Source: Pyropia yezoensis (taxonomy: Eukaryota > Rhodophyta > Bangiophyceae > Bangiales > Bangiaceae). Taken from it: DNA of 64,000 nucleotides. The stretch spans positions 31,162,894-31,226,893 of the forward strand of contig CM020618.1 in NCBI GenBank assembly GCA_009829735.1, read 5' to 3'. Under the pieces are notes generated by a model. That model did not search any database. It was given only the letters and a program-made list of their open reading frames with translations, and was not told where the DNA came from. The position numbers and the translations under genes are program-made. Positions 1 through 50,066 of this stretch are shown here, one piece after another (the first letter of the stretch is position 1; the number at the start of each line of letters is the position of its first letter).

Positions 1-713
1 AATTGAAAGTTAAGGGTTAGAAGTAGCCCCCCTAATATTAGGGTTACAATACGGCCAACCATATTGCTACACTCGGGTACCCGAGTTGCTTGGCTTCCGT
101 CGTCGATGGGACACTGCGAGACGGTACCGCCTCCCCCCCTCGCCGACTCGGTTCCGGCGTAAGTATCCGCCGGATCATGTCCGCGGAGCCCGCTCTGGGT
201 GCTCCGAGCGTAGCGCTCCGTATGGCTACGTTCCAAATCAGCCGGCGAGTCGGATCCATAACCCGCCGTGTCCGGGGGTTGTCCAGGAGTAGCAACACCG
301 GGGTCGACCCTGGTGGACTCCGAAAGTAGTCCGGCCGGTTCGAACCGTACCGGTGTGGGAGGAACACGACGGGGTACTGTCGTGTGGCTTGTTGACATCA
401 GCACAGCCATTGCGTCCTCCGTACGCTCTTCACGGGCGTCGAGTCCGGTGAACCGGGCTTTGATGCGAGCCAATGATGCCATCAGGGAGTCCCCTGGTGA
501 AGGTGGCGGCGGAGTGCGGTCGGCAGAGGACGGTTCTGGAAATCCGCCGCCCCCGGCCGTCCGTGCCGTACCAAACGTCGATCCGGCACCGGAGAGCATC
601 GGCGTCTCAATGTTGTCGATCGGGTTACCGATCCCGATTCCCGGGTTCAGCTCCAGGGTCGGCGTCGACGCCGATCCGTCATCTTGAACGTTCCCCGTCT
701 CTTGGGTAGACAT
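1..713 (-). CDS. Gag-like ORF, copy cut by the left window edge
   Basis: The start ATG is at 713. The frame stays open to base 1, with the stop expected outside the window. The sequence is identical to the consensus copy over the visible part. The LTR-derived tail begins at about base 71. Confidence 0.5.
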   Translation of the reverse strand, partial: MSTQETGNVQDDGSASTPTLELNPGIGIGNPIDNIETPMLSGAGSTFGTARTAGGGGFPEPSSADRTPPPPSPGDSLMASLARIKARFTGLDAREERTEDAMAVLMSTSHTTVPRRVPPTPVRFEPAGLLSESTRVDPGVATPGQPPDTAGYGSDSPADLERSHTERYARSTQSGLRGHDPADTYAGTESARGGGGTVSQCPIDDGSQATRVPECSNMVGRIVTLILGGLLLTLNFQ

Positions 714-1199
714 AGTCACAATCAGTCAACCGACGTAACAATCACCACGAATAATAGAGCGAGGGGGTAGATTGGGGGGAGTAACAGTAGATCACAGTCA
801 AAGGTAAAAACTCAACACAATCGATCAGGTTGCAACACCACGAGTACAAGAAAAGGACCGGATCCCTATCCGTGTGCCAGGGCCGAAGACGGCGTCACCA
901 CAAGGGTGACGGAAACCCGTCCCCTGCTGCTCCACCAATGTAGCACAATAGGTATCCGCTGCACGTCCACTCTCAGGGAACACTCACCAAGGGGGATCGG
1001 CACCAACGTCACCGGGAGGCCAAGGTTGCTGTCCTTGGAGCACAAGCCACGGGATCAAGATGGGAGCCCAAATGGGAGGGGTTTGTTGTTCTACCTTGGC
1101 CGGCGGTAGATTCGCCGCCGGCTCCCTCGTTATAAGCCCTCGGAGACACTACTAACTACCCTCCACCCCAAGATGCAAGTCCCTCTGGTCATACGTAAC

Positions 1200-1942
1200 T
1201 TATAGATACCGTGACCAGTACGAACTATCAAATTGAAAGTTAAGGGTTAGAAGTAGCCCCCCTAATATTAGGGTTACAATACGGCCAACCATATTGCTAC
1301 ACTCGGGTACCCGAGTTGCTTGGCTTCCGTCGTCGATGGGACACTGCGAGACGGTACCGCCTCCCCCCCTCGCCGACTCGGTTCCGGCGTAAGTATCCGC
1401 CGGATCATGTCCGCGGAGCCCGCTCTGGGTGCTCCGAGCGTAGCGCTCCGTATGGCTACGTTCCAAATCAGCCGGCGAGTCGGATCCATAACCCGCCGTG
1501 TCCGGGGGTTGTCCAGGAGTAGCAACACCGGGGTCGACCCTGGTGGACTCCGAAAGTAGTCCGGCCGGTTCGAACCGTACCGGTGTGGGAGGAACACGAC
1601 GGGGTACTGTCGTGTGGCTTGTTGACATCAGCACAGCCATTGCGTCCTCCGTACGCTCTTCACGGGCGTCGAGTCCGGTGAACCGGGCTTTGATGCGAGC
1701 CAATGATGCCATCAGGGAGTCCCTGGTGAAGGTGGCGGCGGAGTGCGGTCGGCAGAGGACGGTTCTGGAAATCCGCCGCCCCCGGCCGTCCGTGCCGTAC
1801 CAAACGTCGATCCGGCACCGGAGAGCATCGGCGTCTCAATGTTGTCGATCGGGTTACCGATCCCGATTCCCGGGTTCAGCTCCAGGGTCGGCGTCGACGC
1901 CGATCCGTCATCTTGAACGTTCCCCGTCTCTTGGGTAGACAT
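1200..1942 (-). pseudogene. Gag-like copy with a one-base deletion
   Basis: The C4 run found in other units (gagtcccctgg) is C3 here at about 1722-1724. This shifts the frame and splits the ORF into an N-terminal piece (1712-1942) and a downstream piece (1200-1712). The rest matches consensus. The change lies in a homopolymer, so a consensus error in the assembly is as likely as a real mutation. Confidence 0.55.
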
Positions 1943-2148
1943 AGTCACAATCAGTCAACCGACGTAACAATCACCACGAATAATAGAGCGAGGGGGTAGA
2001 TTGGGGGGAGTAACAGTAGATCACAGTCAAAGGTAAAAACTCAACACAATCGATCAGGTTGCAACACCACGAGTACAAGAAAAGGACCGGATCCCTATCC
2101 GTGTGCCAGGGCCGAAGACGGCGTCACCACAAGGGTGACGGAAACCCG

Positions 2149-2166
2149 TCCCCTGCTGCTCCACCA
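2149..2166 (-). promoter_or_regulatory. Putative retrotransposon primer-binding site (PBS), representative
   Basis: The plus strand reads TCCCCTGCTGCTCCACCA, ending in CCA one base before the LTR (spacer at 2167). On the minus strand this is TGGTGGAGCAGCAGG..., directly downstream of the LTR 3' end, where a tRNA primer anneals through its CCA tail. The final CTCCACCA equals the 3' end of many tRNA-Ala species, so an alanine tRNA primer is a reasonable guess, but only about 8-9 bases support it. The site is repeated beside every complete LTR, for example 44724-44741. Confidence 0.6.
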
Positions 2167-2167
2167 A

Positions 2168-2530
2168 TGTAGCACAATAGGTATCCGCTGCACGTCCACT
2201 CTCAGGGAACACTCACCAAGGGGGATCGGCACCAACGTCACCGGGAGGCCAAGGTTGCTGTCCTTGGAGCACAAGCCACGGGATCAAGATGGGAGCCCAA
2301 ATGGGAGGGGTTTGTTGTTCTACCTTGGCCGGCGGTAGATTCGCCGCCGGCTCCCTCGTTATAAGCCCTCGGAGACACTACTAACTACCCTCCACCCCAA
2401 GATGCAAGTCCCTCTGGTCATACGTAACTTATAGATACCGTGACCAGTACGAACTATCAAATTGAAAGTTAAGGGTTAGAAGTAGCCCCCCTAATATTAG
2501 GGTTACAATACGGCCAACCATATTGCTACA
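2168..2530 (-). mobile_element. Representative long terminal repeat (363 bp) of the array
   Basis: Read on the minus strand the segment begins TGTAGCA (ending at plus 2530) and ends TGCTACA (plus 2168). This is a perfect 7-bp inverted terminal repeat with the canonical TG...CA ends of LTRs. A primer-binding site lies one base inside. The same block recurs in every unit (full copies 361-363 bp). At 45103 the block stops exactly at TGCTACA and unrelated DNA begins, which fixes one boundary independently. The LTR contains a TTATAA box at 2359-2364, a hairpin at 2328-2351 and a telomere-like 14-bp palindrome near its outer end. The superfamily (Ty1/copia or Ty3) cannot be decided because no pol gene is present. 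Confidence 0.85.
2359..2364 (-). promoter_or_regulatory. TATA-like box in the LTR (representative)
   Basis: TTATAA lies about 170 bases inside the LTR in the minus (element) direction, a position compatible with a U3 promoter. It is followed 8 bases later by a perfect 8-bp stem hairpin (2328-2351, arms GCCGGCGG and CCGCCGGC, 8-base loop), which would straddle the expected transcription start. The hairpin stem is kept in all copies I compared; the edge LTR has one loop substitution (44912). Promoter activity is inferred from position only. Confidence 0.4.
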
Positions 2531-3172
2531 CTCGGGTACCCGAGTTGCTTGGCTTCCGTCGTCGATGGGACACTGCGAGACGGTACCGCCTCCCCCCCTC
2601 GCCGACTCGGTTCCGGCGTAAGTATCCGCCGGATCATGTCCGCGGAGCCCGCTCTGGGTGCTCCGAGCGTAGCGCTCCGTATGGCTACGTTCCAAATCAG
2701 CCGGCGAGTCGGATCCATAACCCGCCGTGTCCGGGGGTTGTCCAGGAGTAGCAACACCGGGGTCGACCCTGGTGGACTCCGAAAGTAGTCCGGCCGGTTC
2801 GAACCGTACCGGTGTGGGAGGAACACGACGGGGTACTGTCGTGTGGCTTGTTGACATCAGCACAGCCATTGCGTCCTCCGTACGCTCTTCACGGGCGTCG
2901 AGTCCGGTGAACCGGGCTTTGATGCGAGCCAATGATGCCATCAGGGAGTCCCCTGGTGAAGGTGGCGGCGGAGTGCGGTCGGCAGAGGACGGTTCTGGAA
3001 ATCCGCCGCCCCCGGCCGTCCGTGCCGTACCAAACGTCGATCCGGCACCGGAGAGCATCGGCGTCTCAATGTTGTCGATCGGGTTACCGATCCCGATTCC
3101 CGGGTTCAGCTCCAGGGTCGGCGTCGACGCCGATCCGTCATCTTGAACGTTCCCCGTCTCTTGGGTAGACAT
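2429..3172 (-). CDS. Gag-like truncated retrotransposon ORF fused to LTR, representative copy (247 aa)
   Basis: This is the only long ORF in element orientation downstream of the LTR and PBS. The ATG is at 3172; an in-frame GTG two codons upstream was not used. Residues 1-75 are Gly/Pro/Ser-rich and disordered. Residues 75-108 form a charged helix with heptad-like spacing (around SLARIKARFTGLDAREE). Residues 109-214 are Arg/Ser/Pro-rich. The last 33 residues are encoded by the downstream LTR and contain a hydrophobic stretch (VTLILGGLLLTL). There is no CCHC zinc knuckle, protease, reverse transcriptase, RNase H or integrase, so the element cannot be autonomous. Identical complete copies end (stop side) at 2429, 3659, 4887, 6117, 7347, 8577, 9807, 11037, 12267, 13497, 14727, 15957, 18416, 21219, 22449, 26557, 27786, 29016, 30246, 31476, 32705, 33935, 35165, 36395, 37625, 38855, 40084, 41314 and 42544; each starts 743 bases higher. 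Gag identity is inferred from position and composition, not from a recognised domain. Confidence 0.55.
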   Translation of the reverse strand: MSTQETGNVQDDGSASTPTLELNPGIGIGNPIDNIETPMLSGAGSTFGTARTAGGGGFPEPSSADRTPPPPSPGDSLMASLARIKARFTGLDAREERTEDAMAVLMSTSHTTVPRRVPPTPVRFEPAGLLSESTRVDPGVATPGQPPDTAGYGSDSPADLERSHTERYARSTQSGLRGHDPADTYAGTESARGGGGTVSQCPIDDGSQATRVPECSNMVGRIVTLILGGLLLTLNFQFDSSYWSRYL

Positions 3173-6100
3173 AGTCACAATCAGTCAACCGACGTAACAA
3201 TCACCACGAATAATAGAGCGAGGGGGTAGATTGGGGGGAGTAACAGTAGATCACAGTCAAAGGTAAAAACTCAACACAATCGATCAGGTTGCAACACCAC
3301 GAGTACAAGAAAAGGACCGGATCCCTATCCGTGTGCCAGGGCCGAAGACGGCGTCACCACAAGGGTGACGGAAACCCGTCCCCTGCTGCTCCACCAATGT
3401 AGCACAATAGGTATCCGCTGCACGTCCACTCTCAGGGAACACTCACCAAGGGGGATCGGCACCAACGTCACCGGGAGGCCAAGGTTGCTGTCCTTGGAGC
3501 ACAAGCCACGGGATCAAGATGGGAGCCCAAATGGGAGGGGTTTGTTGTTCTACCTTGGCCGGCGGTAGATTCGCCGCCGGCTCCCTCGTTATAAGCCCTC
3601 GGAGACACTACTAACTACCCTCCACCCCAAGATGCAAGTCCCTCTGGTCATACGTAACTTATAGATACCGTGACCAGTACGAACTATCAAATTGAAAGTT
3701 AAGGGTTAGAAGTAGCCCCCCTAATATTAGGGTTACAATACGGCCAACCATATTGCTACACTCGGGTACCCGAGTTGCTTGGCTTCCGTCGTCGATGGGA
3801 CACTGCGAGACGGTACCGCCTCCCCCCCTCGCCGACTCGGTTCCGGCGTAAGTATCCGCCGGATCATGTCCGCGGAGCCCGCTCTGGGTGCTCCGAGCGT
3901 AGCGCTCCGTATGGCTACGTTCCAAATCAGCCGGCGAGTCGGATCCATAACCCGCCGTGTCCGGGGGTTGTCCAGGAGTAGCAACACCGGGGTCGACCCT
4001 GGTGGACTCCGAAAGTAGTCCGGCCGGTTCGAACCGTACCGGTGTGGGAGGAACACGACGGGGTACTGTCGTGTGGCTTGTTGACATCAGCACAGCCATT
4101 GCGTCCTCCGTACGCTCTTCACGGGCGTCGAGTCCGGTGAACCGGGCTTTGATGCGAGCCAATGATGCCATCAGGGAGTCCCCTGGTGAAGGTGGCGGCG
4201 GAGTGCGGTCGGCAGAGGACGGTTCTGGAAATCCGCCGCCCCCGGCCGTCCGTGCCGTACCAAACGTCGATCCGGCACCGGAGAGCATCGGCGTCTCAAT
4301 GTTGTCGATCGGGTTACCGATCCCGATTCCCGGGTTCAGCTCCAGGGTCGGCGTCGACGCCGATCCGTCATCTTGAACGTTCCCCGTCTCTTGGGTAGAC
4401 ATAGTCACAATCAGTCAACCGACGTAACAATCACCACGAATAATAGAGCGAGGGGGTAGATTGGGGGAGTAACAGTAGATCACAGTCAAAGGTAAAAACT
4501 CAACACAATCGATCAGGTTGCAACACCACGAGTACAAGAAAAGGACCGGATCCCTATCCGTGTGCCAGGGCCGAAGACGGCGTCACCACAAGGGTGACGG
4601 AAACCCGTCCCCTGCTGCTCCACCAATGTAGCACAATAGGTATCCGCTGCACGTCCACTCTCAGGGAACACTCACCAAGGGGATCGGCACCAACGTCACC
4701 GGGAGGCCAAGGTTGCTGTCCTTGGAGCACAAGCCACGGGATCAAGATGGGAGCCCAAATGGGAGGGGTTTGTTGTTCTACCTTGGCCGGCGGTAGATTC
4801 GCCGCCGGCTCCCTCGTTATAAGCCCTCGGAGACACTACTAACTACCCTCCACCCCAAGATGCAAGTCCCTCTGGTCATACGTAACTTATAGATACCGTG
4901 ACCAGTACGAACTATCAAATTGAAAGTTAAGGGTTAGAAGTAGCCCCCCTAATATTAGGGTTACAATACGGCCAACCATATTGCTACACTCGGGTACCCG
5001 AGTTGCTTGGCTTCCGTCGTCGATGGGACACTGCGAGACGGTACCGCCTCCCCCCCTCGCCGACTCGGTTCCGGCGTAAGTATCCGCCGGATCATGTCCG
5101 CGGAGCCCGCTCTGGGTGCTCCGAGCGTAGCGCTCCGTATGGCTACGTTCCAAATCAGCCGGCGAGTCGGATCCATAACCCGCCGTGTCCGGGGGTTGTC
5201 CAGGAGTAGCAACACCGGGGTCGACCCTGGTGGACTCCGAAAGTAGTCCGGCCGGTTCGAACCGTACCGGTGTGGGAGGAACACGACGGGGTACTGTCGT
5301 GTGGCTTGTTGACATCAGCACAGCCATTGCGTCCTCCGTACGCTCTTCACGGGCGTCGAGTCCGGTGAACCGGGCTTTGATGCGAGCCAATGATGCCATC
5401 AGGGAGTCCCCTGGTGAAGGTGGCGGCGGAGTGCGGTCGGCAGAGGACGGTTCTGGAAATCCGCCGCCCCCGGCCGTCCGTGCCGTACCAAACGTCGATC
5501 CGGCACCGGAGAGCATCGGCGTCTCAATGTTGTCGATCGGGTTACCGATCCCGATTCCCGGGTTCAGCTCCAGGGTCGGCGTCGACGCCGATCCGTCATC
5601 TTGAACGTTCCCCGTCTCTTGGGTAGACATAGTCACAATCAGTCAACCGACGTAACAATCACCACGAATAATAGAGCGAGGGGGTAGATTGGGGGGAGTA
5701 ACAGTAGATCACAGTCAAAGGTAAAAACTCAACACAATCGATCAGGTTGCAACACCACGAGTACAAGAAAAGGACCGGATCCCTATCCGTGTGCCAGGGC
5801 CGAAGACGGCGTCACCACAAGGGTGACGGAAACCCGTCCCCTGCTGCTCCACCAATGTAGCACAATAGGTATCCGCTGCACGTCCACTCTCAGGGAACAC
5901 TCACCAAGGGGGATCGGCACCAACGTCACCGGGAGGCCAAGGTTGCTGTCCTTGGAGCACAAGCCACGGGATCAAGATGGGAGCCCAAATGGGAGGGGTT
6001 TGTTGTTCTACCTTGGCCGGCGGTAGATTCGCCGCCGGCTCCCTCGTTATAAGCCCTCGGAGACACTACTAACTACCCTCCACCCCAAGATGCAAGTCCC

Positions 6101-9100
6101 TCTGGTCATACGTAACTTATAGATACCGTGACCAGTACGAACTATCAAATTGAAAGTTAAGGGTTAGAAGTAGCCCCCCTAATATTAGGGTTACAATACG
6201 GCCAACCATATTGCTACACTCGGGTACCCGAGTTGCTTGGCTTCCGTCGTCGATGGGACACTGCGAGACGGTACCGCCTCCCCCCCTCGCCGACTCGGTT
6301 CCGGCGTAAGTATCCGCCGGATCATGTCCGCGGAGCCCGCTCTGGGTGCTCCGAGCGTAGCGCTCCGTATGGCTACGTTCCAAATCAGCCGGCGAGTCGG
6401 ATCCATAACCCGCCGTGTCCGGGGGTTGTCCAGGAGTAGCAACACCGGGGTCGACCCTGGTGGACTCCGAAAGTAGTCCGGCCGGTTCGAACCGTACCGG
6501 TGTGGGAGGAACACGACGGGGTACTGTCGTGTGGCTTGTTGACATCAGCACAGCCATTGCGTCCTCCGTACGCTCTTCACGGGCGTCGAGTCCGGTGAAC
6601 CGGGCTTTGATGCGAGCCAATGATGCCATCAGGGAGTCCCCTGGTGAAGGTGGCGGCGGAGTGCGGTCGGCAGAGGACGGTTCTGGAAATCCGCCGCCCC
6701 CGGCCGTCCGTGCCGTACCAAACGTCGATCCGGCACCGGAGAGCATCGGCGTCTCAATGTTGTCGATCGGGTTACCGATCCCGATTCCCGGGTTCAGCTC
6801 CAGGGTCGGCGTCGACGCCGATCCGTCATCTTGAACGTTCCCCGTCTCTTGGGTAGACATAGTCACAATCAGTCAACCGACGTAACAATCACCACGAATA
6901 ATAGAGCGAGGGGGTAGATTGGGGGGAGTAACAGTAGATCACAGTCAAAGGTAAAAACTCAACACAATCGATCAGGTTGCAACACCACGAGTACAAGAAA
7001 AGGACCGGATCCCTATCCGTGTGCCAGGGCCGAAGACGGCGTCACCACAAGGGTGACGGAAACCCGTCCCCTGCTGCTCCACCAATGTAGCACAATAGGT
7101 ATCCGCTGCACGTCCACTCTCAGGGAACACTCACCAAGGGGGATCGGCACCAACGTCACCGGGAGGCCAAGGTTGCTGTCCTTGGAGCACAAGCCACGGG
7201 ATCAAGATGGGAGCCCAAATGGGAGGGGTTTGTTGTTCTACCTTGGCCGGCGGTAGATTCGCCGCCGGCTCCCTCGTTATAAGCCCTCGGAGACACTACT
7301 AACTACCCTCCACCCCAAGATGCAAGTCCCTCTGGTCATACGTAACTTATAGATACCGTGACCAGTACGAACTATCAAATTGAAAGTTAAGGGTTAGAAG
7401 TAGCCCCCCTAATATTAGGGTTACAATACGGCCAACCATATTGCTACACTCGGGTACCCGAGTTGCTTGGCTTCCGTCGTCGATGGGACACTGCGAGACG
7501 GTACCGCCTCCCCCCCTCGCCGACTCGGTTCCGGCGTAAGTATCCGCCGGATCATGTCCGCGGAGCCCGCTCTGGGTGCTCCGAGCGTAGCGCTCCGTAT
7601 GGCTACGTTCCAAATCAGCCGGCGAGTCGGATCCATAACCCGCCGTGTCCGGGGGTTGTCCAGGAGTAGCAACACCGGGGTCGACCCTGGTGGACTCCGA
7701 AAGTAGTCCGGCCGGTTCGAACCGTACCGGTGTGGGAGGAACACGACGGGGTACTGTCGTGTGGCTTGTTGACATCAGCACAGCCATTGCGTCCTCCGTA
7801 CGCTCTTCACGGGCGTCGAGTCCGGTGAACCGGGCTTTGATGCGAGCCAATGATGCCATCAGGGAGTCCCCTGGTGAAGGTGGCGGCGGAGTGCGGTCGG
7901 CAGAGGACGGTTCTGGAAATCCGCCGCCCCCGGCCGTCCGTGCCGTACCAAACGTCGATCCGGCACCGGAGAGCATCGGCGTCTCAATGTTGTCGATCGG
8001 GTTACCGATCCCGATTCCCGGGTTCAGCTCCAGGGTCGGCGTCGACGCCGATCCGTCATCTTGAACGTTCCCCGTCTCTTGGGTAGACATAGTCACAATC
8101 AGTCAACCGACGTAACAATCACCACGAATAATAGAGCGAGGGGGTAGATTGGGGGGAGTAACAGTAGATCACAGTCAAAGGTAAAAACTCAACACAATCG
8201 ATCAGGTTGCAACACCACGAGTACAAGAAAAGGACCGGATCCCTATCCGTGTGCCAGGGCCGAAGACGGCGTCACCACAAGGGTGACGGAAACCCGTCCC
8301 CTGCTGCTCCACCAATGTAGCACAATAGGTATCCGCTGCACGTCCACTCTCAGGGAACACTCACCAAGGGGGATCGGCACCAACGTCACCGGGAGGCCAA
8401 GGTTGCTGTCCTTGGAGCACAAGCCACGGGATCAAGATGGGAGCCCAAATGGGAGGGGTTTGTTGTTCTACCTTGGCCGGCGGTAGATTCGCCGCCGGCT
8501 CCCTCGTTATAAGCCCTCGGAGACACTACTAACTACCCTCCACCCCAAGATGCAAGTCCCTCTGGTCATACGTAACTTATAGATACCGTGACCAGTACGA
8601 ACTATCAAATTGAAAGTTAAGGGTTAGAAGTAGCCCCCCTAATATTAGGGTTACAATACGGCCAACCATATTGCTACACTCGGGTACCCGAGTTGCTTGG
8701 CTTCCGTCGTCGATGGGACACTGCGAGACGGTACCGCCTCCCCCCCTCGCCGACTCGGTTCCGGCGTAAGTATCCGCCGGATCATGTCCGCGGAGCCCGC
8801 TCTGGGTGCTCCGAGCGTAGCGCTCCGTATGGCTACGTTCCAAATCAGCCGGCGAGTCGGATCCATAACCCGCCGTGTCCGGGGGTTGTCCAGGAGTAGC
8901 AACACCGGGGTCGACCCTGGTGGACTCCGAAAGTAGTCCGGCCGGTTCGAACCGTACCGGTGTGGGAGGAACACGACGGGGTACTGTCGTGTGGCTTGTT
9001 GACATCAGCACAGCCATTGCGTCCTCCGTACGCTCTTCACGGGCGTCGAGTCCGGTGAACCGGGCTTTGATGCGAGCCAATGATGCCATCAGGGAGTCCC

Positions 9101-19645: not shown

Positions 19646-20732
19646 TTATAGATACCGTGACCAGTACGAACTATCAAATTGAAAGTTAAGGGTTAGAAGT
19701 AGCCCCCCTAATATTAGGGTTACAATACGGCCAACCATATTGCTACACTCGGGTACCCGAGTTGCTTGGCTTCCGTCGTCGATGGGACACTGCGAGACGG
19801 TACCGCCTCCCCCCCTCGCCGACTCGGTTCCGGCGTAAGTATCCGCCGGATCATGTCCGCGGAGCCCGCTCTGGGTGCTCCGAGCGTAGCGCTCCGTATG
19901 GCTACGTTCCAAATCAGCCGGCGAGTCGGATCCATAACCCGCCGTGTCCGGGGGTTGTCCAGGAGTAGCAACACCGGGGTCGACCCTGGTGGACTCCGAA
20001 AGTAGTCCGGCCGGTTCGAACCGTACCGGTGTGGGAGGAACACGACGGGGGTACTGTCGTGTGGCTTGTTGACATCAGCACAGCCATTGCGTCCTCCGTA
20101 CGCTCTTCACGGGCGTCGAGTCCGGTGAACCGGGCTTTGATGCGAGCCAATGATGCCATCAGGGAGTCCCCTGGTGAAGGTGGCGGCGGAGTGCGGTCGG
20201 CAGAGGACGGTTCTGGAAATCCGCCGCCCCCGGCCGTCCGTGCCGTACCAAACGTCGATCCGGCACCGGAGAGCATCGGCGTCTCAATGTTGTCGATCGG
20301 GTTACCGATCCCGATTCCCGGGTTCAGCTCCAGGGTCGGCGTCGACGCCGATCCGTCATCTTGAACGTTCCCCGTCTCTTGGGTAGACAGAGTCACTGTC
20401 GTGTGGCTAGTTGACATCAGCACAGCCATTGCGTCCTCCGTACGCTCTTCACGGGCGTCGAGTCCGGTGAACCGGGCTTTGATGCGAGCCAATGATGCCA
20501 TCAGGGAGTCCCCTGGTGAAGGTGGCGGCGGAGTGCGGTCGGCAGAGGACGGTTCTGGAAATCCGCCGCCCCCGGCCGTCCGTGCCGTACCAAACGTCGA
20601 TCCGGCACCGGAGAGCATCGGCGTCTCAATGTTGTCGATCGGGTTACCGATCCCGATTCCCGGGTTCAGCTCCAGGGTCGGCGTCGACGCCGATCCGTCA
20701 TCTTGAACGTTCCCCGTCTCTTGGGTAGACAT
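19646..20732 (-). pseudogene. Gag-like copy carrying a 342-bp internal tandem duplication
   Basis: The first part of gag (about 114 codons) is present twice in direct order, with a join near 20395. 342 is divisible by three, so the duplication itself keeps the frame. The join also carries base changes (gacagagtcactg at 20388-20400 and gtggctag at 20403-20410). Beyond the second copy an extra G (a run of five G at 20046-20050 where other units have four) shifts the frame, so the long ORF ends at 19914 with an aberrant tail. This unit is 1573 bp long instead of 1230. Confidence 0.75.
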
Positions 20733-23700
20733 AGTCACAATCAGTCAACCGACGTAACAATCACCACGAATAATAGAGCGAGGGGGTAGATTGGGGGGAG
20801 TAACAGTAGATCACAGTCAAAGGTAAAAACTCAACACAATCGATCAGGTTGCAACACCACGAGTACAAGAAAAGGACCGGATCCCTATCCGTGTGCCAGG
20901 GCCGAAGACGGCGTCACCACAAGGGTGACGGAAACCCGTCCCCTGCTGCTCCACCAATGTAGCACAATAGGTATCCGCTGCACGTCCACTCTCAGGGAAC
21001 ACTCACCAAGGGGGATCGGCACCAACGTCACCGGGAGGCCAAGGTTGCTGTCCTTGGAGCACAAGCCACGGGATCAAGATGGGAGCCCAAATGGGAGGGG
21101 TTTGTTGTTCTACCTTGGCCGGCGGTAGATTCGCCGCCGGCTCCCTCGTTATAAGCCCTCGGAGACACTACTAACTACCCTCCACCCCAAGATGCAAGTC
21201 CCTCTGGTCATACGTAACTTATAGATACCGTGACCAGTACGAACTATCAAATTGAAAGTTAAGGGTTAGAAGTAGCCCCCCTAATATTAGGGTTACAATA
21301 CGGCCAACCATATTGCTACACTCGGGTACCCGAGTTGCTTGGCTTCCGTCGTCGATGGGACACTGCGAGACGGTACCGCCTCCCCCCCTCGCCGACTCGG
21401 TTCCGGCGTAAGTATCCGCCGGATCATGTCCGCGGAGCCCGCTCTGGGTGCTCCGAGCGTAGCGCTCCGTATGGCTACGTTCCAAATCAGCCGGCGAGTC
21501 GGATCCATAACCCGCCGTGTCCGGGGGTTGTCCAGGAGTAGCAACACCGGGGTCGACCCTGGTGGACTCCGAAAGTAGTCCGGCCGGTTCGAACCGTACC
21601 GGTGTGGGAGGAACACGACGGGGTACTGTCGTGTGGCTTGTTGACATCAGCACAGCCATTGCGTCCTCCGTACGCTCTTCACGGGCGTCGAGTCCGGTGA
21701 ACCGGGCTTTGATGCGAGCCAATGATGCCATCAGGGAGTCCCCTGGTGAAGGTGGCGGCGGAGTGCGGTCGGCAGAGGACGGTTCTGGAAATCCGCCGCC
21801 CCCGGCCGTCCGTGCCGTACCAAACGTCGATCCGGCACCGGAGAGCATCGGCGTCTCAATGTTGTCGATCGGGTTACCGATCCCGATTCCCGGGTTCAGC
21901 TCCAGGGTCGGCGTCGACGCCGATCCGTCATCTTGAACGTTCCCCGTCTCTTGGGTAGACATAGTCACAATCAGTCAACCGACGTAACAATCACCACGAA
22001 TAATAGAGCGAGGGGGTAGATTGGGGGGAGTAACAGTAGATCACAGTCAAAGGTAAAAACTCAACACAATCGATCAGGTTGCAACACCACGAGTACAAGA
22101 AAAGGACCGGATCCCTATCCGTGTGCCAGGGCCGAAGACGGCGTCACCACAAGGGTGACGGAAACCCGTCCCCTGCTGCTCCACCAATGTAGCACAATAG
22201 GTATCCGCTGCACGTCCACTCTCAGGGAACACTCACCAAGGGGGATCGGCACCAACGTCACCGGGAGGCCAAGGTTGCTGTCCTTGGAGCACAAGCCACG
22301 GGATCAAGATGGGAGCCCAAATGGGAGGGGTTTGTTGTTCTACCTTGGCCGGCGGTAGATTCGCCGCCGGCTCCCTCGTTATAAGCCCTCGGAGACACTA
22401 CTAACTACCCTCCACCCCAAGATGCAAGTCCCTCTGGTCATACGTAACTTATAGATACCGTGACCAGTACGAACTATCAAATTGAAAGTTAAGGGTTAGA
22501 AGTAGCCCCCCTAATATTAGGGTTACAATACGGCCAACCATATTGCTACACTCGGGTACCCGAGTTGCTTGGCTTCCGTCGTCGATGGGACACTGCGAGA
22601 CGGTACCGCCTCCCCCCCTCGCCGACTCGGTTCCGGCGTAAGTATCCGCCGGATCATGTCCGCGGAGCCCGCTCTGGGTGCTCCGAGCGTAGCGCTCCGT
22701 ATGGCTACGTTCCAAATCAGCCGGCGAGTCGGATCCATAACCCGCCGTGTCCGGGGGTTGTCCAGGAGTAGCAACACCGGGGTCGACCCTGGTGGACTCC
22801 GAAAGTAGTCCGGCCGGTTCGAACCGTACCGGTGTGGGAGGAACACGACGGGGTACTGTCGTGTGGCTTGTTGACATCAGCACAGCCATTGCGTCCTCCG
22901 TACGCTCTTCACGGGCGTCGAGTCCGGTGAACCGGGCTTTGATGCGAGCCAATGATGCCATCAGGGAGTCCCCTGGTGAAGGTGGCGGCGGAGTGCGGTC
23001 GGCAGAGGACGGTTCTGGAAATCCGCCGCCCCCGGCCGTCCGTGCCGTACCAAACGTCGATCCGGCACCGGAGAGCATCGGCGTCTCAATGTTGTCGATC
23101 GGGTTACCGATCCCGATTCCCGGGTTCAGCTCCAGGGTCGGCGTCGACGCCGATCCGTCATCTTGAACGTTCCCCGTCTCTTGGGTAGACATAGTCACAA
23201 TCAGTCAACCGACGTAACAATCACCACGAATAATAGAGCGAGGGGGTAGATTGGGGGGAGTAACAGTAGATCACAGTCAAAGGTAAAAACTCAACACAAT
23301 CGATCAGGTTGCAACACCACGAGTACAAGAAAAGGACCGGATCCCTATCCGTGTGCCAGGGCCGAAGACGGCGTCACCACAAGGGTGACGGAAACCCGTC
23401 CCCTGCTGCTCCACCAATGTAGCACAATAGGTATCCGCTGCACGTCCACTCTCAGGGAACACTCACCAAGGGGGATCGGCACCAACGTCACCGGGAGGCC
23501 AAGGTTGCTGTCCTTGGAGCACAAGCCACGGGATCAAGATGGGAGCCCAAATGGGAGGGGTTTGTTGTTCTACCTTGGCCGGCGGTAGATTCGCCGCCGG
23601 CTCCCTCGTTATAAGCCCTCGGAGACACTACTAACTACCCTCCACCCCAAGATGCAAGTCCCTCTGGTCATACGTAACTTATAGATACCGTGACCAGTAC

Positions 23701-24210
23701 GAACTATCAAATTGAAAGTTAAGGGTTAGAAGTAGCCCCCCTAATATTAGGGTTACAATACGGCCAACCATATTGCTACACTCGGGTACCCGAGTTGCTT
23801 GGCTTCCGTCGTCGATGGGACACTGCGAGACGGTACCGCCTCCCCCCTCGCCGACTCGGTTCCGGCGTAAGTATCCGCCGGATCATGTCCGCGGAGCCCG
23901 CTCTGGGTGCTCCGAGCGTAGCGCTCCGTATGGCTACGTTCCAAATCAGCCGGCGAGTCGGATCCATAACCCGCCGTGTCCGGGGGTTGTCCAGGAGTAG
24001 CAACACCGGGGTCGACCCTGGTGGACTCCGAAAGTAGTCCGGCCGGTTCGAACCGTACCGGTGTGGGAGGAACACGACGGGGTACTGTCGTGTGGCTTGT
24101 TGACATCAGCACAGCCATTGCGTCCTCCGTACGCTCTTCACGGGCGTCGAGTCCGGTGAACCGGGCTTTGATGCGAGCCAATGATGCCATCAGGGAGATC
24201 CCCTGGTGAA

Positions 24211-24560
24211 GGTCCCTCTGGTCATACGTAACTTATAGATACCGTGACCAGTACGCTATCAAATTGAAAGTTAAGGGTTAGAAGTAGCCCCCCTAATATT
24301 AGGGTTACAATACGGCCAACCATATTGCTACACTCGGGTACCCGAGTTGCTTGGCTTCCGTCGTCGATGGGACACTGCGAGACGGTACCGCCTCCCCCCT
24401 CGCCGACTCGGTTCCGGCGTAAGTATCCGCCGGATCATGTCCGCGGAGCCCGCTCTGGGTGCTCCGAGCGTAGCGCTCCGTATGGCTACGTTCCAAATCA
24501 GCCGGCGAGTCGGATCGGAGAGCATCGGCGTCTCAATGTTGTCGATCGGGTTACCGATCA
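24211..24560 (-). repeat. Rearranged chimeric module with a truncated LTR
   Basis: Three abnormal joins are visible. At about 24211-24213 gag sequence jumps into the interior of an LTR, deleting the leader, PBS and distal LTR. At about 24516 sequence near a GGATC jumps across gag to GGAGAGCATC. At about 24559 it jumps back within gag, duplicating the segment that contains GTCGATCGGG. LTR copy 21 is therefore only about 122 bp (24211-24332). Short shared bases at the joins (GGT, GATC) suggest microhomology-mediated repair or template switching. Confidence 0.75.
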
Positions 24561-25327
24561 CGGGCGTCGAGTCCGGTGAACCGGGCTTTGATGCGAGCCA
24601 ATGATGCCATCAGGGAGTCCCCTGGTGAAGGTGGCGGCGGAGTGCGGTCGGCAGAGGACGGTTCTGGAAATCCGCCGCCCCCGGCCGTCCGTGCCGTACC
24701 AAACGTCGATCCGGCACCGGAGAGCATCGGCGTCTCAATGTTGTCGATCGGGTTACCGATCCCGATTCCCGGGTTCAGCTCCAGGGTCGGCGTCGACGCC
24801 GATCCGTCATCTTGAACGTTCCCCGTCTCTTGGGTAGACATAGTCACAATCAGTCAACCGACGTAACAATCACCACGAATAATAGAGCGAGGGGGTAGAT
24901 TGGGGGGAGTAACAGTAGATCACAGTCAAAGGTAAAAACTCAACACAATCGATCAGGTTGCAACACCACGAGTACAAGAAAAGGACCGGATCCCTATCCG
25001 TGTGCCAGGGCCGAAGACGGCGTCACCACAAGGGTGACGGAAACCCGTCCCCTGCTGCTCCACCAATGTAGCACAATAGGTATCCGCTGCACGTCCACTC
25101 TCAGGGAACACTCACCAAGGGGGATCGGCACCAACGTCACCGGGAGGCCAAGGTTGCTGTCCTTGGAGCACAAGCCACGGGATCAAGATGGGAGCCCAAA
25201 TGGGAGGGGTTTGTTGTTCTACCTTGGCCGGCGGTAGATTCGCCGCCGGCTCCCTCGTTATAAGCCCTCGGAGACACTACTAACTACCCTCCACCCCAAG
25301 ATGCAAGTCCCTCTGGTCATACGTAAC

Positions 25328-26070
25328 TTATAGATACCGTGACCAGTACGAACTATCAAATTGAAAGTTAAGGGTTAGAAGTAGCCCCCCTAATATTAGG
25401 GTTACAATACGGCCAACCATATTGCTACACTCGGGTACCCGAGTTGCTTGGCTTCCGTCGTCGATGGGACACTGCGAGACGGTACCGCCTCCCCCCCTCG
25501 CCGACTCGGTTCCGGCGTAAGTATCCGCCGGATCATGTCCGCGGAGCCCGCTCTGGGTGCTCCGAGCGTAGCGCTCCGTATGGCTACGTTCCAAATCAGC
25601 CCGGCGAGTCGGATCCATAACCCGCCGTGTCCGGGGGTTGTCCAGGAGTAGCAACACCGGGGTCGACCCTGGTGGACTCCGAAAGTAGTCCGGCCGGTTC
25701 GAACCGTACCGGTGTGGAGGAACACGACGGGGTACTGTCGTGTGGCTTGTTGACATCAGCACAGCCATTGCGTCCTCCGTACGCTCTTCACGGGCGTCGA
25801 GTCCGGTGAACCGGGCTTTGATGCGAGCCAATGATGCCATCAGGGAGTCCCCTGGTGAAGGTGGCGGCGGAGTGCGGTCGGCAGAGGACGGTTCTGGAAA
25901 TCCGCCGCCCCGGCCGTCCGTGCCGTACCAAACGTCGATCCGGCACCGGAGAGCATCGGCGTCTCAATGTTGTCGATCGGGTTACCGATCCCGATTCCCG
26001 GGTTCAGCTCCAGGGTCGGCGTCGACGCCGATCCGTCATCTTGAACGTTCCCCGTCTCTTGGGTAGACAT
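25328..26070 (-). pseudogene. Gag-like copy with three single-base indels
   Basis: Compared with consensus there is one extra C near 25599 (agcccggcg), one missing G near 25716 (gtgtggagg) and one missing C near 25912 (ccgccccgg). The minus frame is broken three times. No other unit has so many changes. It lies next to the rearranged zone. Confidence 0.6.
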
Positions 26071-38000: not shown

Positions 38001-41000
38001 CGTACCGGTGTGGGAGGAACACGACGGGGTACTGTCGTGTGGCTTGTTGACATCAGCACAGCCATTGCGTCCTCCGTACGCTCTTCACGGGCGTCGAGTC
38101 CGGTGAACCGGGCTTTGATGCGAGCCAATGATGCCATCAGGGAGTCCCCTGGTGAAGGTGGCGGCGGAGTGCGGTCGGCAGAGGACGGTTCTGGAAATCC
38201 GCCGCCCCCGGCCGTCCGTGCCGTACCAAACGTCGATCCGGCACCGGAGAGCATCGGCGTCTCAATGTTGTCGATCGGGTTACCGATCCCGATTCCCGGG
38301 TTCAGCTCCAGGGTCGGCGTCGACGCCGATCCGTCATCTTGAACGTTCCCCGTCTCTTGGGTAGACATAGTCACAATCAGTCAACCGACGTAACAATCAC
38401 CACGAATAATAGAGCGAGGGGGTAGATTGGGGGGAGTAACAGTAGATCACAGTCAAAGGTAAAAACTCAACACAATCGATCAGGTTGCAACACCACGAGT
38501 ACAAGAAAAGGACCGGATCCCTATCCGTGTGCCAGGGCCGAAGACGGCGTCACCACAAGGGTGACGGAAACCCGTCCCCTGCTGCTCCACCAATGTAGCA
38601 CAATAGGTATCCGCTGCACGTCCACTCTCAGGGAACACTCACCAAGGGGGATCGGCACCAACGTCACCGGGAGGCCAAGGTTGCTGTCCTTGGAGCACAA
38701 GCCACGGGATCAAGATGGGAGCCCAAATGGGAGGGGTTTGTTGTTCTACCTTGGCCGGCGGTAGATTCGCCGCCGGCTCCCTCGTTATAAGCCCTCGGAG
38801 ACACTACTAACTACCCTCCACCCCAAGATGCAAGTCCCTCTGGTCATACGTAACTTATAGATACCGTGACCAGTACGAACTATCAAATTGAAAGTTAAGG
38901 GTTAGAAGTAGCCCCCCTAATATTAGGGTTACAATACGGCCAACCATATTGCTACACTCGGGTACCCGAGTTGCTTGGCTTCCGTCGTCGATGGGACACT
39001 GCGAGACGGTACCGCCTCCCCCCCTCGCCGACTCGGTTCCGGCGTAAGTATCCGCCGGATCATGTCCGCGGAGCCCGCTCTGGGTGCTCCGAGCGTAGCG
39101 CTCCGTATGGCTACGTTCCAAATCAGCCGGCGAGTCGGATCCATAACCCGCCGTGTCCGGGGGTTGTCCAGGAGTAGCAACACCGGGGTCGACCCTGGTG
39201 GACTCCGAAAGTAGTCCGGCCGGTTCGAACCGTACCGGTGTGGGAGGAACACGACGGGGTACTGTCGTGTGGCTTGTTGACATCAGCACAGCCATTGCGT
39301 CCTCCGTACGCTCTTCACGGGCGTCGAGTCCGGTGAACCGGGCTTTGATGCGAGCCAATGATGCCATCAGGGAGTCCCCTGGTGAAGGTGGCGGCGGAGT
39401 GCGGTCGGCAGAGGACGGTTCTGGAAATCCGCCGCCCCCGGCCGTCCGTGCCGTACCAAACGTCGATCCGGCACCGGAGAGCATCGGCGTCTCAATGTTG
39501 TCGATCGGGTTACCGATCCCGATTCCCGGGTTCAGCTCCAGGGTCGGCGTCGACGCCGATCCGTCATCTTGAACGTTCCCCGTCTCTTGGGTAGACATAG
39601 TCACAATCAGTCAACCGACGTAACAATCACCACGAATAATAGAGCGAGGGGGTAGATTGGGGGAGTAACAGTAGATCACAGTCAAAGGTAAAAACTCAAC
39701 ACAATCGATCAGGTTGCAACACCACGAGTACAAGAAAAGGACCGGATCCCTATCCGTGTGCCAGGGCCGAAGACGGCGTCACCACAAGGGTGACGGAAAC
39801 CCGTCCCCTGCTGCTCCACCAATGTAGCACAATAGGTATCCGCTGCACGTCCACTCTCAGGGAACACTCACCAAGGGGGATCGGCACCAACGTCACCGGG
39901 AGGCCAAGGTTGCTGTCCTTGGAGCACAAGCCACGGGATCAAGATGGGAGCCCAAATGGGAGGGGTTTGTTGTTCTACCTTGGCCGGCGGTAGATTCGCC
40001 GCCGGCTCCCTCGTTATAAGCCCTCGGAGACACTACTAACTACCCTCCACCCCAAGATGCAAGTCCCTCTGGTCATACGTAACTTATAGATACCGTGACC
40101 AGTACGAACTATCAAATTGAAAGTTAAGGGTTAGAAGTAGCCCCCCTAATATTAGGGTTACAATACGGCCAACCATATTGCTACACTCGGGTACCCGAGT
40201 TGCTTGGCTTCCGTCGTCGATGGGACACTGCGAGACGGTACCGCCTCCCCCCCTCGCCGACTCGGTTCCGGCGTAAGTATCCGCCGGATCATGTCCGCGG
40301 AGCCCGCTCTGGGTGCTCCGAGCGTAGCGCTCCGTATGGCTACGTTCCAAATCAGCCGGCGAGTCGGATCCATAACCCGCCGTGTCCGGGGGTTGTCCAG
40401 GAGTAGCAACACCGGGGTCGACCCTGGTGGACTCCGAAAGTAGTCCGGCCGGTTCGAACCGTACCGGTGTGGGAGGAACACGACGGGGTACTGTCGTGTG
40501 GCTTGTTGACATCAGCACAGCCATTGCGTCCTCCGTACGCTCTTCACGGGCGTCGAGTCCGGTGAACCGGGCTTTGATGCGAGCCAATGATGCCATCAGG
40601 GAGTCCCCTGGTGAAGGTGGCGGCGGAGTGCGGTCGGCAGAGGACGGTTCTGGAAATCCGCCGCCCCCGGCCGTCCGTGCCGTACCAAACGTCGATCCGG
40701 CACCGGAGAGCATCGGCGTCTCAATGTTGTCGATCGGGTTACCGATCCCGATTCCCGGGTTCAGCTCCAGGGTCGGCGTCGACGCCGATCCGTCATCTTG
40801 AACGTTCCCCGTCTCTTGGGTAGACATAGTCACAATCAGTCAACCGACGTAACAATCACCACGAATAATAGAGCGAGGGGGTAGATTGGGGGGAGTAACA
40901 GTAGATCACAGTCAAAGGTAAAAACTCAACACAATCGATCAGGTTGCAACACCACGAGTACAAGAAAAGGACCGGATCCCTATCCGTGTGCCAGGGCCGA

Positions 41001-43836
41001 AGACGGCGTCACCACAAGGGTGACGGAAACCCGTCCCCTGCTGCTCCACCAATGTAGCACAATAGGTATCCGCTGCACGTCCACTCTCAGGGAACACTCA
41101 CCAAGGGGGATCGGCACCAACGTCACCGGGAGGCCAAGGTTGCTGTCCTTGGAGCACAAGCCACGGGATCAAGATGGGAGCCCAAATGGGAGGGGTTTGT
41201 TGTTCTACCTTGGCCGGCGGTAGATTCGCCGCCGGCTCCCTCGTTATAAGCCCTCGGAGACACTACTAACTACCCTCCACCCCAAGATGCAAGTCCCTCT
41301 GGTCATACGTAACTTATAGATACCGTGACCAGTACGAACTATCAAATTGAAAGTTAAGGGTTAGAAGTAGCCCCCCTAATATTAGGGTTACAATACGGCC
41401 AACCATATTGCTACACTCGGGTACCCGAGTTGCTTGGCTTCCGTCGTCGATGGGACACTGCGAGACGGTACCGCCTCCCCCCCTCGCCGACTCGGTTCCG
41501 GCGTAAGTATCCGCCGGATCATGTCCGCGGAGCCCGCTCTGGGTGCTCCGAGCGTAGCGCTCCGTATGGCTACGTTCCAAATCAGCCGGCGAGTCGGATC
41601 CATAACCCGCCGTGTCCGGGGGTTGTCCAGGAGTAGCAACACCGGGGTCGACCCTGGTGGACTCCGAAAGTAGTCCGGCCGGTTCGAACCGTACCGGTGT
41701 GGGAGGAACACGACGGGGTACTGTCGTGTGGCTTGTTGACATCAGCACAGCCATTGCGTCCTCCGTACGCTCTTCACGGGCGTCGAGTCCGGTGAACCGG
41801 GCTTTGATGCGAGCCAATGATGCCATCAGGGAGTCCCCTGGTGAAGGTGGCGGCGGAGTGCGGTCGGCAGAGGACGGTTCTGGAAATCCGCCGCCCCCGG
41901 CCGTCCGTGCCGTACCAAACGTCGATCCGGCACCGGAGAGCATCGGCGTCTCAATGTTGTCGATCGGGTTACCGATCCCGATTCCCGGGTTCAGCTCCAG
42001 GGTCGGCGTCGACGCCGATCCGTCATCTTGAACGTTCCCCGTCTCTTGGGTAGACATAGTCACAATCAGTCAACCGACGTAACAATCACCACGAATAATA
42101 GAGCGAGGGGGTAGATTGGGGGGAGTAACAGTAGATCACAGTCAAAGGTAAAAACTCAACACAATCGATCAGGTTGCAACACCACGAGTACAAGAAAAGG
42201 ACCGGATCCCTATCCGTGTGCCAGGGCCGAAGACGGCGTCACCACAAGGGTGACGGAAACCCGTCCCCTGCTGCTCCACCAATGTAGCACAATAGGTATC
42301 CGCTGCACGTCCACTCTCAGGGAACACTCACCAAGGGGGATCGGCACCAACGTCACCGGGAGGCCAAGGTTGCTGTCCTTGGAGCACAAGCCACGGGATC
42401 AAGATGGGAGCCCAAATGGGAGGGGTTTGTTGTTCTACCTTGGCCGGCGGTAGATTCGCCGCCGGCTCCCTCGTTATAAGCCCTCGGAGACACTACTAAC
42501 TACCCTCCACCCCAAGATGCAAGTCCCTCTGGTCATACGTAACTTATAGATACCGTGACCAGTACGAACTATCAAATTGAAAGTTAAGGGTTAGAAGTAG
42601 CCCCCCTAATATTAGGGTTACAATACGGCCAACCATATTGCTACACTCGGGTACCCGAGTTGCTTGGCTTCCGTCGTCGATGGGACACTGCGAGACGGTA
42701 CCGCCTCCCCCCCTCGCCGACTCGGTTCCGGCGTAAGTATCCGCCGGATCATGTCCGCGGAGCCCGCTCTGGGTGCTCCGAGCGTAGCGCTCCGTATGGC
42801 TACGTTCCAAATCAGCCGGCGAGTCGGATCCATAACCCGCCGTGTCCGGGGGTTGTCCAGGAGTAGCAACACCGGGGTCGACCCTGGTGGACTCCGAAAG
42901 TAGTCCGGCCGGTTCGAACCGTACCGGTGTGGGAGGAACACGACGGGGTACTGTCGTGTGGCTTGTTGACATCAGCACAGCCATTGCGTCCTCCGTACGC
43001 TCTTCACGGGCGTCGAGTCCGGTGAACCGGGCTTTGATGCGAGCCAATGATGCCATCAGGGAGTCCCCTGGTGAAGGTGGCGGCGGAGTGCGGTCGGCAG
43101 AGGACGGTTCTGGAAATCCGCCGCCCCCGGCCGTCCGTGCCGTACCAAACGTCGATCCGGCACCGGAGAGCATCGGCGTCTCAATGTTGTCGATCGGGTT
43201 ACCGATCCCGATTCCCGGGTTCAGCTCCAGGGTCGGCGTCGACGCCGATCCGTCATCTTGAACGTTCCCCGTCTCTTGGGTAGACATAGTCACAATCAGT
43301 CAACCGACGTAACAATCACCACGAATAATAGAGCGAGGGGGTAGATTGGGGGGAGTAACAGTAGATCACAGTCAAAGGTAAAAACTCAACACAATCGATC
43401 AGGTTGCAACACCACGAGTACAAGAAAAGGACCGGATCCCTATCCGTGTGCCAGGGCCGAAGACGGCGTCACCACAAGGGTGACGGAAACCCGTCCCCTG
43501 CTGCTCCACCAATGTAGCACAATAGGTATCCGCTGCACGTCCACTCTCAGGGAACACTCACCAAGGGGGATCGGCACCAACGTCACCGGGAGGCCAAGGT
43601 TGCTGTCCTTGGAGCACAAGCCACGGGATCAAGATGGGAGCCCAAATGGGAGGGGTTTGTTGTTCTACCTTGGCCGGCGGTAGATTCGCCGCCGGCTCCC
43701 TCGTTATAAGCCCTCGGAGACACTACTAACTACCCTCCACCCCAAGATGCAAGTCCCTCTGGTCATACGTAACTTATAGATACCGTGACCAGTACGAACT
43801 ATCAAATTGAAAGTTAAGGGTTAGAAGTAGCCCCCC

Positions 43837-44517
43837 TTATATTAGGGTTACAATACGGCCAACCATATTGCTACACTCGGGTACCCGAGTTGCTTGGCTT
43901 CCGTCGTCGATGGGACACTGCGAGACGGTACCGCCTCCCCCCCTCGCCGACTCGGTTCCGGCGTAAGTATCCGCCGGATCATGTCCGCGGAGCCCGCTCT
44001 GGGTGCTCCGAGCGTAGCGCTCCGTATGGCTACGTTCCAAATCAGCCGGCGAGTCGGATCCATAACCCGCCGTGTCCGGGGGTTGTCCAGGAGTAGCAAC
44101 ACCGGGGTCGACCCTGGTGGACTCCGAAAGTAGTCCGGCCGGTTCGAACCGTACCGGTGTGGGAGGAACACGACGGGGTACTGTCGTGTGGCTTGTTGAC
44201 ATCAGCACAGCCATTGCGTCCTCCGTACGCTCTTCACGGGCGTCGAGTCCGGTGAACCGGGCTTTGATGCGAGCCAATGATGCCATCAGGGAGTCCCCTG
44301 GTGAAGGTGGCGGCGGAGTGCGGTCGGCAGAGGACGGTTCTGGAAATCCGCCGCCCCCGGCCGTCCGTGCCGTACCAAACGTCGATCCGGCACCGGAGAG
44401 CATCGGCGTCTCAATGTTGTCGATCGGGTTACCGATCCCGATTCCCGGGTTCAGCTCCAGGGTCGGCGTCGACGCCGATCTGTCATCTTGAACGTTCCCC
44501 GTCTCTTGGGTAGACAT
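43837..44517 (-). pseudogene. Rightmost gag-like copy, shortened by a stop in the LTR-encoded tail
   Basis: A plus-strand A-to-T change at 43838 creates a stop two codons into the hydrophobic tail, so the protein (about 226 aa) lacks the putative membrane segment. A second substitution at 44481 changes one residue near the N-terminus. This is the unit next to the array edge, and it is the first, going rightward, with clear substitutions not tied to a rearrangement. Confidence 0.6.
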
Positions 44518-44742
44518 AGTCACAATCAGTCAACCGACGTAACAATCACCACGAATAATAGAGCGAGGGGGTAGATTGGGGGGAGTAACAGTAGATCACA
44601 GTCAAAGGTAAAAACTCAACACAATCGATCAGGTTGCAACACCACGAGTACAAGAAAAGGACCGGATCCCTATCCGTGTGCCAGGGCCGAAGACGGCGTC
44701 ACCACAAGGGTGACGGAAACCCGTCCCCTGCTGCTCCACCAA

Positions 44743-45103
44743 TGTAGCACAATAGGTATCCGCTGCACGTCCACTCTCAGGGAACACTCACCAAGGGGGA
44801 TCGGCACCAACGTCACCGGGAGGCCAAGGTTGCTGTCCTTGGAGCACAAGCCACGGGATCAAGATGGGAGCCCAAATGGGAGGGGTTTGTTGTTCTACCT
44901 TGGCCGGCGGTGGATTCGCCGCCGGCTCCCTCGTTATAAGCCCTCGGAGACACTACTAACTACCCTCCACCCCAAGATGCAAGTCCCTCTGGTCATACGT
45001 AACTTATAGATACCGTGACCAGTACGGACTCCCAAATTGAAAGATAAGGGTTAGAAGTAGCCCCCTAATATAGGGTCACAATACGGTCAACCATATTGCT
45101 ACA
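44743..45103 (-). mobile_element. Edge LTR, divergent copy flush with flanking DNA
   Basis: This 361-bp copy keeps TGTAGCA/TGCTACA ends and the adjacent PBS (44724-44741). It differs from the interior LTR consensus at 44912, 45027, 45031, 45032 and 45044, and in the last 45 bases (a lost C, a lost T, T-to-C and C-to-T). Beyond TGCTACA at 45103 the sequence is unrelated (gctgctcctgctg). This is the upstream (5') LTR of the whole chain in element orientation. A target-site duplication cannot be tested because the other edge is not in the window. Confidence 0.8.
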
Positions 45104-49863: not shown

Positions 49864-49951
49864 GTCGATCGATACTAGCTATTTTTAAACATATGGATCG
49901 GTCTTTGCCAACCTTGCGCGTGGCCCCCCTCCCGCGCGGCCCCGCCTTATT

Positions 49952-50066
49952 GTGCGTCCCGTAAAAAGTGGACGTGCACGGGTCGTGCAGTGTGGGTTTG
50001 ATTGGTCCAGTGGCCGGTATTTGACATGATCACGACACGTGCACGTCCACTTTTTACGGGACGCAC
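49952..50066. mobile_element. 115-bp snap-back element with 36-bp inverted repeats
   Basis: GTGCGTCCCGTAAAAAGTGG at 49952 has its exact complement ending at 50066. The arms match over 36 bases with one mismatch, leaving a centre of about 43 bases that contains ATTGGTCC. Such a structure folds into one long hairpin. It is too small to code. It may be a foldback MITE, or a transcribed hairpin if read from the downstream gene's promoter region. Confidence 0.65.

Follow-up and report, generated by a model that had tools for sequence, protein, structure and literature searches.

The DNA analysed here, a window of 64,000 bp (C1:31162894-31226893), belongs to contig C1 (43.59 Mb) of the Pyropia yezoensis assembly GCA_009829735.1, which comprises 107.5 Mb in 11 contigs, the large ones measuring 43.59, 34.33 and 29.39 Mb. 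Its positions 1..45103 (minus strand) are occupied by a tandem array whose right end is window position 45103 and which continues 3,982 bp leftwards beyond the window to C1:31158912. The whole array thus spans C1:31158912-31207996, that is 49,085 bp in this assembly; its existence there is confirmed, and chance plays no part in it. It consists of 40 internal fragments (three of them odd) corresponding to the front part of a Ty3/gypsy gag gene, mostly 867 bp long and separated by single 363-bp LTRs, so that a typical unit of 363 + 867 bp measures 1230 bp and reads on the minus strand. One shared LTR, TGTAGC...GCTACA in element direction, lies at 939..1301 (minus strand) and is followed by an internal fragment at 1302..2167 (minus strand) with the primer-binding region, which we assign by its place, and the first ~214 gag codons. 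The fragment is cut at about element position 1229, where the next LTR adjoins directly. This particular fragment, which we used as the query unit, measures 866 bp owing to a one-base deletion that shifts the frame. In another unit the gag-like ORF (2429..3178, minus strand) is 249 aa long as listed and extends into the LTR. The unit contains a single site each for BspQI and BssSI.

A preliminary description made from the window had recognized a module of one LTR plus truncated gag, joined head to tail through single shared LTRs and nearly free of substitutions, and each of these points was borne out. It had counted about 37 units; in the window we found 37 LTR-motif copies at a spacing of 1228-1230 bp (exceptions: 1573, 552 and 1097 bp). 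The junction GCTACA|CTCGG is present 40 times in the array, the first CTCGG of the window being at 72..76. The subtelomeric position that had been considered is not supported, as the array sits at 31.2 of 43.6 Mb on C1. To its right, at ~6 and 14 kb, we found ORFs with matches to an AAA domain (below the Pfam cut-off) and a CBS domain, and scans of the window with Rfam and for tRNAs gave no matches.

By comparing the units with each other, we observed a very high uniformity. Among the 40 complete array LTRs, 36 are identical, and one further LTR is cut down to its last 123 bp within an odd unit. Out of 39 units with both edges, 29 measure 1230 bp and 27 are letter-for-letter identical. Across the 36 normal-length units (44,272 bases) we saw two substitutions, or ~4.5e-5 per base, compared with 15/363 and 18/361 differing sites within the LTR pairs of the two parental copies described below; all other differences in these units are one-base indels, mostly at short homopolymers. 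The three odd units (3/39; units 20, 23 and 24) lie in mid-array: one with a 342-bp internal duplication (19748..21320, minus strand) and two in a row with deletions (23781-24332 and 24333-25429; together 23781..25429, minus strand). The two units after this pair, up to ~27887, carry one-base indels, several of them at positions also hit in an unanchored contig of array units (array 2, see below). This mid-array stretch is probably poorly assembled. Moreover, since polishing of near-identical units may mask true differences, the real array may be less uniform than the assembled one.

The LTR/primer-site motif has 1019 matches in the genome within two mismatches, array included, hence LTR-type elements with these ends form a large family, as the preliminary description would have it. 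The dispersed copy L016 has matches to reverse transcriptase, RNase H and integrase, which is the domain order of Ty3/gypsy elements, and we classify the parent family accordingly. Insertions of this family are flanked by 5-bp target site duplications (TSDs) at the inner copy, the outer copy and the nest on C2 (all described below); L016 itself has no matching TSD. No Pfam match at E 0.01 was obtained for the ORF of the unit, nor for a gag ORF of 729 aa from a dispersed copy. A purine run, AAGGGGGGG, was seen ahead of the 3' LTR in a dispersed copy, and no polypurine tract precedes the LTR of the unit, which is therefore not a complete mobile element.

TR-GAG elements are defined by a complete gag ORF between LTRs, a primer-binding site and a polypurine tract, and dispersed copies with TSDs; in the unit, gag is cut at codon ~214, so that no complete gag ORF lies between the LTRs. 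TRIMs are short non-coding mobile elements with short terminal repeats, and here the LTR measures 363 bp, the insert is gag-coding and no dispersed copy was found. Dispersal was examined in two ways. In a DNA similarity search, which scored 37 of 1897 candidates and did not list the array, the best dispersed relatives were ~94% identical; closer dispersed copies may therefore exist. A better test for dispersed unit copies is the pattern of the junction itself (20 bases, at most two mismatches), which gave 49 matches in the genome: 40 in the array, 8 on one unanchored contig and 1 on C3. We took the latter (C3:13824434) as a chance match, as family similarity was absent from the 20 kb fetched around it. 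Within these two mismatches the junction is thus absent from dispersed elements; a dispersed unit copy of higher divergence would escape this pattern. There is hence one anchored array locus, the second contig of array units being unanchored. With tandem monomers of LTR plus internal sequence, all from one family and sharing their LTRs, the array corresponds to a retrotransposon-derived tandem repeat of the CRM1TR kind. It differs from the tandem LTR-retrotransposon structure (PMC11899658) by the presence of an inner TSD, CTCGG, and by a unit without domain match.

The source of the unit lies to the left of the window, where a reading of the window alone had to miss it. In element direction, the array is followed by an inner copy of the element (C1:31159274 to 31148532), the remainder of an outer copy, a ~3.4-kb stretch, and the 3' end of the outer copy with its LTR. 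The 5' LTR of the inner copy is the last LTR of the array and its 3' LTR is at C1:31148532-31148895. The outer remainder starts at element position 1223 (C1:31148535 to 31143137) and the outer 3' LTR is at C1:31139048-31139410. The ~3.4-kb stretch is found in both the inner and the outer copy and is absent from the query copy L016. At the other end, the terminal LTR of the array (44743..45103, minus strand) is the 5' LTR of the outer element. Both insertions have kept their TSDs. The plus strand reads CTCGG immediately ahead of the inner 3' LTR (C1:31148527-31148531) and again immediately behind the LTR at each junction of the array, and GCTGC frames the outer copy (C1:31139043-31139047 and window 45104..45108). 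The chance of two such 5-bp matches is ~1e-6. Also, all eight dispersed copies that we compared, chosen as best hits of the DNA search, are uninterrupted at the insertion place. The two intact TSDs together with the order of the elements show that the gag gene of one copy received another copy in the same orientation. The LTR-gag'-LTR unit is hence one half of this self-insertion.

We then compared the array with its parents and found limits of sequence exchange at both ends. On the inner side, 35 of the 39 other complete array LTRs have exactly the sequence of the inner copy's 5' LTR, although 15/363 sites differ between the two LTRs of that copy. In the adjoining 266 bp of internal sequence there is a single difference from the array; divergence then sets in sharply, the subsequent ~600 bp containing the remaining 98 differing columns (including gaps and overhang). 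On the outer side, the terminal LTR has one difference from the array LTR in columns 1-284 and diverges in columns 285-364, with 10 substitutions in a four-way alignment, or 6 substitutions and 2 one-base indels when the same end is aligned pairwise. Of the LTRs aligned, the inner 3' LTR is the closest to the array LTR in these columns, with 4 substitutions compared with 10 for the outer 3' LTR; the two LTRs of the outer copy differ there by 9. This points to an inner-copy origin of the array LTR end, on few informative sites and with a terminal LTR distance that depends on the alignment. The array gag differs from the inner gag at 92/865 sites and would derive from the outer copy, of whose corresponding gag part no other piece survives. 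Units that combine an inner LTR end with an outer gag are what exchange between the outer and inner LTR/gag repeats predicts, and the limits of exchange at both array ends indicate homologous recombination.

Taking these observations together, we propose that the array arose from a self-insertion nest followed by recombinational expansion of a 1230-bp repeat, to which we give a probability of roughly 0.87. An outer copy of this large Ty3/gypsy family occupied the site first. Its gag was then interrupted near element position 1229 by an inner copy of like orientation, with duplication of CTCGG, and the resulting layout, LTR(outer)-gag'(outer)-LTR(inner)-gag(inner), was a direct repeat of ~1230 bp. 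The repeat copies would then have undergone homologous recombination, through unequal sister exchange or break repair and possibly via an excised 1230-bp circle, giving a unit in which the inner LTR end is combined with gag of the outer copy; its amplification to ~40 copies would be very recent. The nest with its TSDs and junctions, the limits of exchange and the uniformity are read from the sequence itself, and the route of recombination, its recency and the true number of units are inferred. We propose no host function for the array, which would be a by-product with the behaviour of a newborn satellite, in support of the earlier view of a retroelement turned into a satellite-like array.

Three other origins of the unit were considered. 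The unit has an LTR, a primer-binding region and part of gag, and tandem TRIMs are known (PMC6934838), hence it could be a non-autonomous mobile element of the TR-GAG type made tandem through LTR-LTR exchange, as the preliminary description had contemplated. We regard this as very improbable, given the missing polypurine tract before the unit LTR and a junction that is undispersed within two mismatches and fully accounted for by the nested TSDs. Alternatively, an internal deletion in a single element could have joined gag to the LTR, according to the LTR-UTR~LTR model (Sharma et al. 2013), and the monomer layout indeed matches that of CRM1TR/CRM4TR (PMC3648361). However, the supposedly deleted remainder survives next door, past a second copy of the element, and opens with the same CTCGG (plus strand) as the array junctions, while the break falls exactly at the LTR end; this route is scarcely credible here. 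Equally negligible is an array built during reverse transcription, by template switching or as tandem cDNA, and inserted as one piece. For complex LTR insertions, template switching is a proposed source (PMC1950507), and rice tandems are proposed to stem from a single tandem insertion (PMC11899658). Against such an event stand the inner TSD and the outer remainder found past the inner 3' LTR, and the resemblance among the array units far exceeds that between the two LTRs of each parent.

Two further alternatives bear on the length and the growth of the array and are compatible with an origin by self-insertion. The length could be a product of the assembly, the true array having few units or many more than 40. 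The assembly was built from PacBio RSII reads with HGAP, PBJelly gap closing and Quiver, and was also scaffolded with BioNano and Hi-C (PMC7423979); the odd, indel-rich units in mid-array, the unanchored 10,463-bp contig of array units between N runs at C1:1.50 Mb, and loci appearing twice within the same C1 zone all favour this possibility. Against it, no N occurs from ~C1:31092894 to the end of the window, and the outer ends have different flanks with a matching TSD. We thus consider a wrong length a serious possibility, though not the probable case. As a sub-route of the self-insertion origin, amplification could have occurred in one step, through an excised 1230-bp circle that was rolling-circle copied and reinserted by homology. 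The 27 identical units out of 39 are as expected from one recent burst. Stepwise exchange with homogenisation predicts the same, and polishing may conceal unit differences, so that exchange and rolling-circle copying cannot be told apart on the present sequence; we hold the one-step route to be rather unlikely.

To find other nests of the family, we surveyed the ~100 of the 1019 motif matches that were listed, all exact and all in C1:0-11.4 Mb. Besides array 2, two further cases of same-strand spacings below 3 kb were present among these listed matches. The first, at C1:0.83 Mb, consists of two consecutive 2.03-kb units whose gag is truncated near position 2027; a similar place at C1:1.58 Mb aligns with it over 5,193 bases at best, with 0 mismatches and 16 gaps. 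The second is a single 1.64-kb unit at C1:1.30 Mb with gag cut at 1646, a place also present twice on C1 (best alignment 3,001 bases, 0 mismatches, 1 gap). Each pair looks like one place assembled twice. A candidate counterpart of the one-unit locus, an inner 3' LTR adjoined by gag sequence that starts at position 1640, was found at C1:1790257 on the other strand; 124-492 kb separate the two edges, and redundant contigs occur in this zone. Two patterns failed to reveal the inner 3' edge of the two-unit locus, their three matches, at 2-3 mismatches, being elsewhere. A pattern match with two mismatches lies at C3:10157472, and a 5.4-kb spacing was seen at C1:10.09 Mb, where the fetched piece contains 500 N. 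The one-unit and the two-unit locus look like further self-insertions, neither of them fully joined up.

Array 2 (C1:1497573-1508035, 10,463 bp) was not accepted as a real second locus. It contains 8 junctions with the 20-base pattern and 9 with a shorter motif, is bordered by runs of N (500 to its left, 10,464 or more to its right), and has many one-base indels. Being full of such indels and placed between N runs, it is in our judgement a stray piece of the 40-unit array. In addition, a 10,825-bp copy at C2:22042971-22053795, flanked on either side by CCCGT, sits in opposite orientation at gag position 1646 of another copy. The one-unit locus has its gag cut at this very position; the C2 insertion is independent of it and, because of its opposite orientation, left no direct repeat. 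Tentatively, then, the family may repeatedly hit particular positions of its own gag, same-orientation hits acting as satellite seeds and the one-, two- and forty-unit loci representing stages of such "self-seeding"; we would not yet bet on this idea.

Among the literature matches listed, no paper dealt with this array, and several known systems resemble it in part. In maize CRM1TR/CRM4TR (PMC3648361), the monomer likewise consists of the LTR and the 5' untranslated part of one Ty3/gypsy element, with the internal part joined directly to the next LTR and an expansion by recombination being proposed. Its authors name nested insertions as one possible start, and their figure shows deletions within one element. 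The start is left open there, whereas in Pyropia the inner copy, the outer remainder and both TSDs persist. Plant tandem LTR-retrotransposons (PMC11899658), mostly gypsy, also have internal regions alternating with shared LTRs, an LTR at both ends and a short outer TSD; those selected in that study have conserved protein domains, unlike the Pyropia unit with its gag fragment only. The rice locus dissected there was argued not to be a nest because, among other reasons, additional TSDs are missing, whereas the Pyropia array has an inner TSD.

The bivalve TRIM TDR58_I57 (PMC6934838) has shared terminal repeats and a comparable copy number. With its 58 terminal repeats and 57 inner domains, the length of our array, initially described as unusual, is so only in relative terms. 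The bivalve repeat is itself dispersed and mobile, in contrast to the Pyropia unit, which was not found dispersed. The Ogre-derived satellites of Lathyrus (PMC7004042) are also retroelement-born arrays that reach satellite length, but they arise from short tandem repeats in the 3' UTR and not, as here, from a self-insertion.

The Pyropia locus therefore stands apart by the still-visible start of an LTR-derived tandem repeat. The first step from a dispersed element to a tandem repeat is usually obscured once the array dominates. With its readable nest, TSDs and limits of exchange, this locus offers a worked example, from a red alga, of the nested-insertion start suggested for the maize repeats (PMC3648361). 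Strains of this cultivated species could reveal growth and shrinkage of the array, and the locus illustrates how a mobile element becomes satellite-like DNA.

Between pol and the 3' LTR, the inner and outer copies of the Ty3/gypsy element carry a 3.4-kb stretch that is absent from the dispersed copy L016. By examining this stretch in L018, we found two long ORFs that read antisense to the element (L018:6693-7850 and L018:7643-9013), for both of which a Pfam search returned no match.

The same family is nested elsewhere. At C2:22042971-22053795 (edges in L037 and L038), one copy has inserted into the gag of a second, at position 1646 and with the reverse orientation, and is flanked by a 5-bp TSD, CCCGT; position 1646 is also where gag is cut in the 1.64-kb one-unit locus on C1. 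More pieces of the family, running in the other direction, were found less than 100 kb left of the window, at C1:31080972-31121852 (in L021 and L025). Near the start of C1, the places at 0.83 and 1.30 Mb each occur a second time in the assembly, at 1.58 and 1.67 Mb respectively (L032-L035). Since gaps are the sole differences in the best alignments of each pair, false duplication is probable there.

Right of the array lie three MITE-like inverted-repeat elements: two of about 460 bp (window 48675-49136 and 49396-49863), with related terminal inverted repeats of 43-47 bp, and a near-palindrome of about 120 bp (49948-50070). At 55270-55742, the hexamer GCTGCC is repeated in tandem about 79 times. 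Judging from Pfam matches of two ORFs, one to an AAA domain with a score below Pfam's cut-off (50898-53309) and one to a CBS domain (59413-61185), host genes are probably located about 6-14 kb away from the array.

Finally, with the outer copy removed (L019 about 5911-6154 joined to window 45104 onward), its insertion site is crossed by open frames on both strands, which could arise by chance in G+C-rich DNA, and the left side matches a C2H2 zinc finger. Together, these sequence features suggest that the outer copy may have struck a gene.
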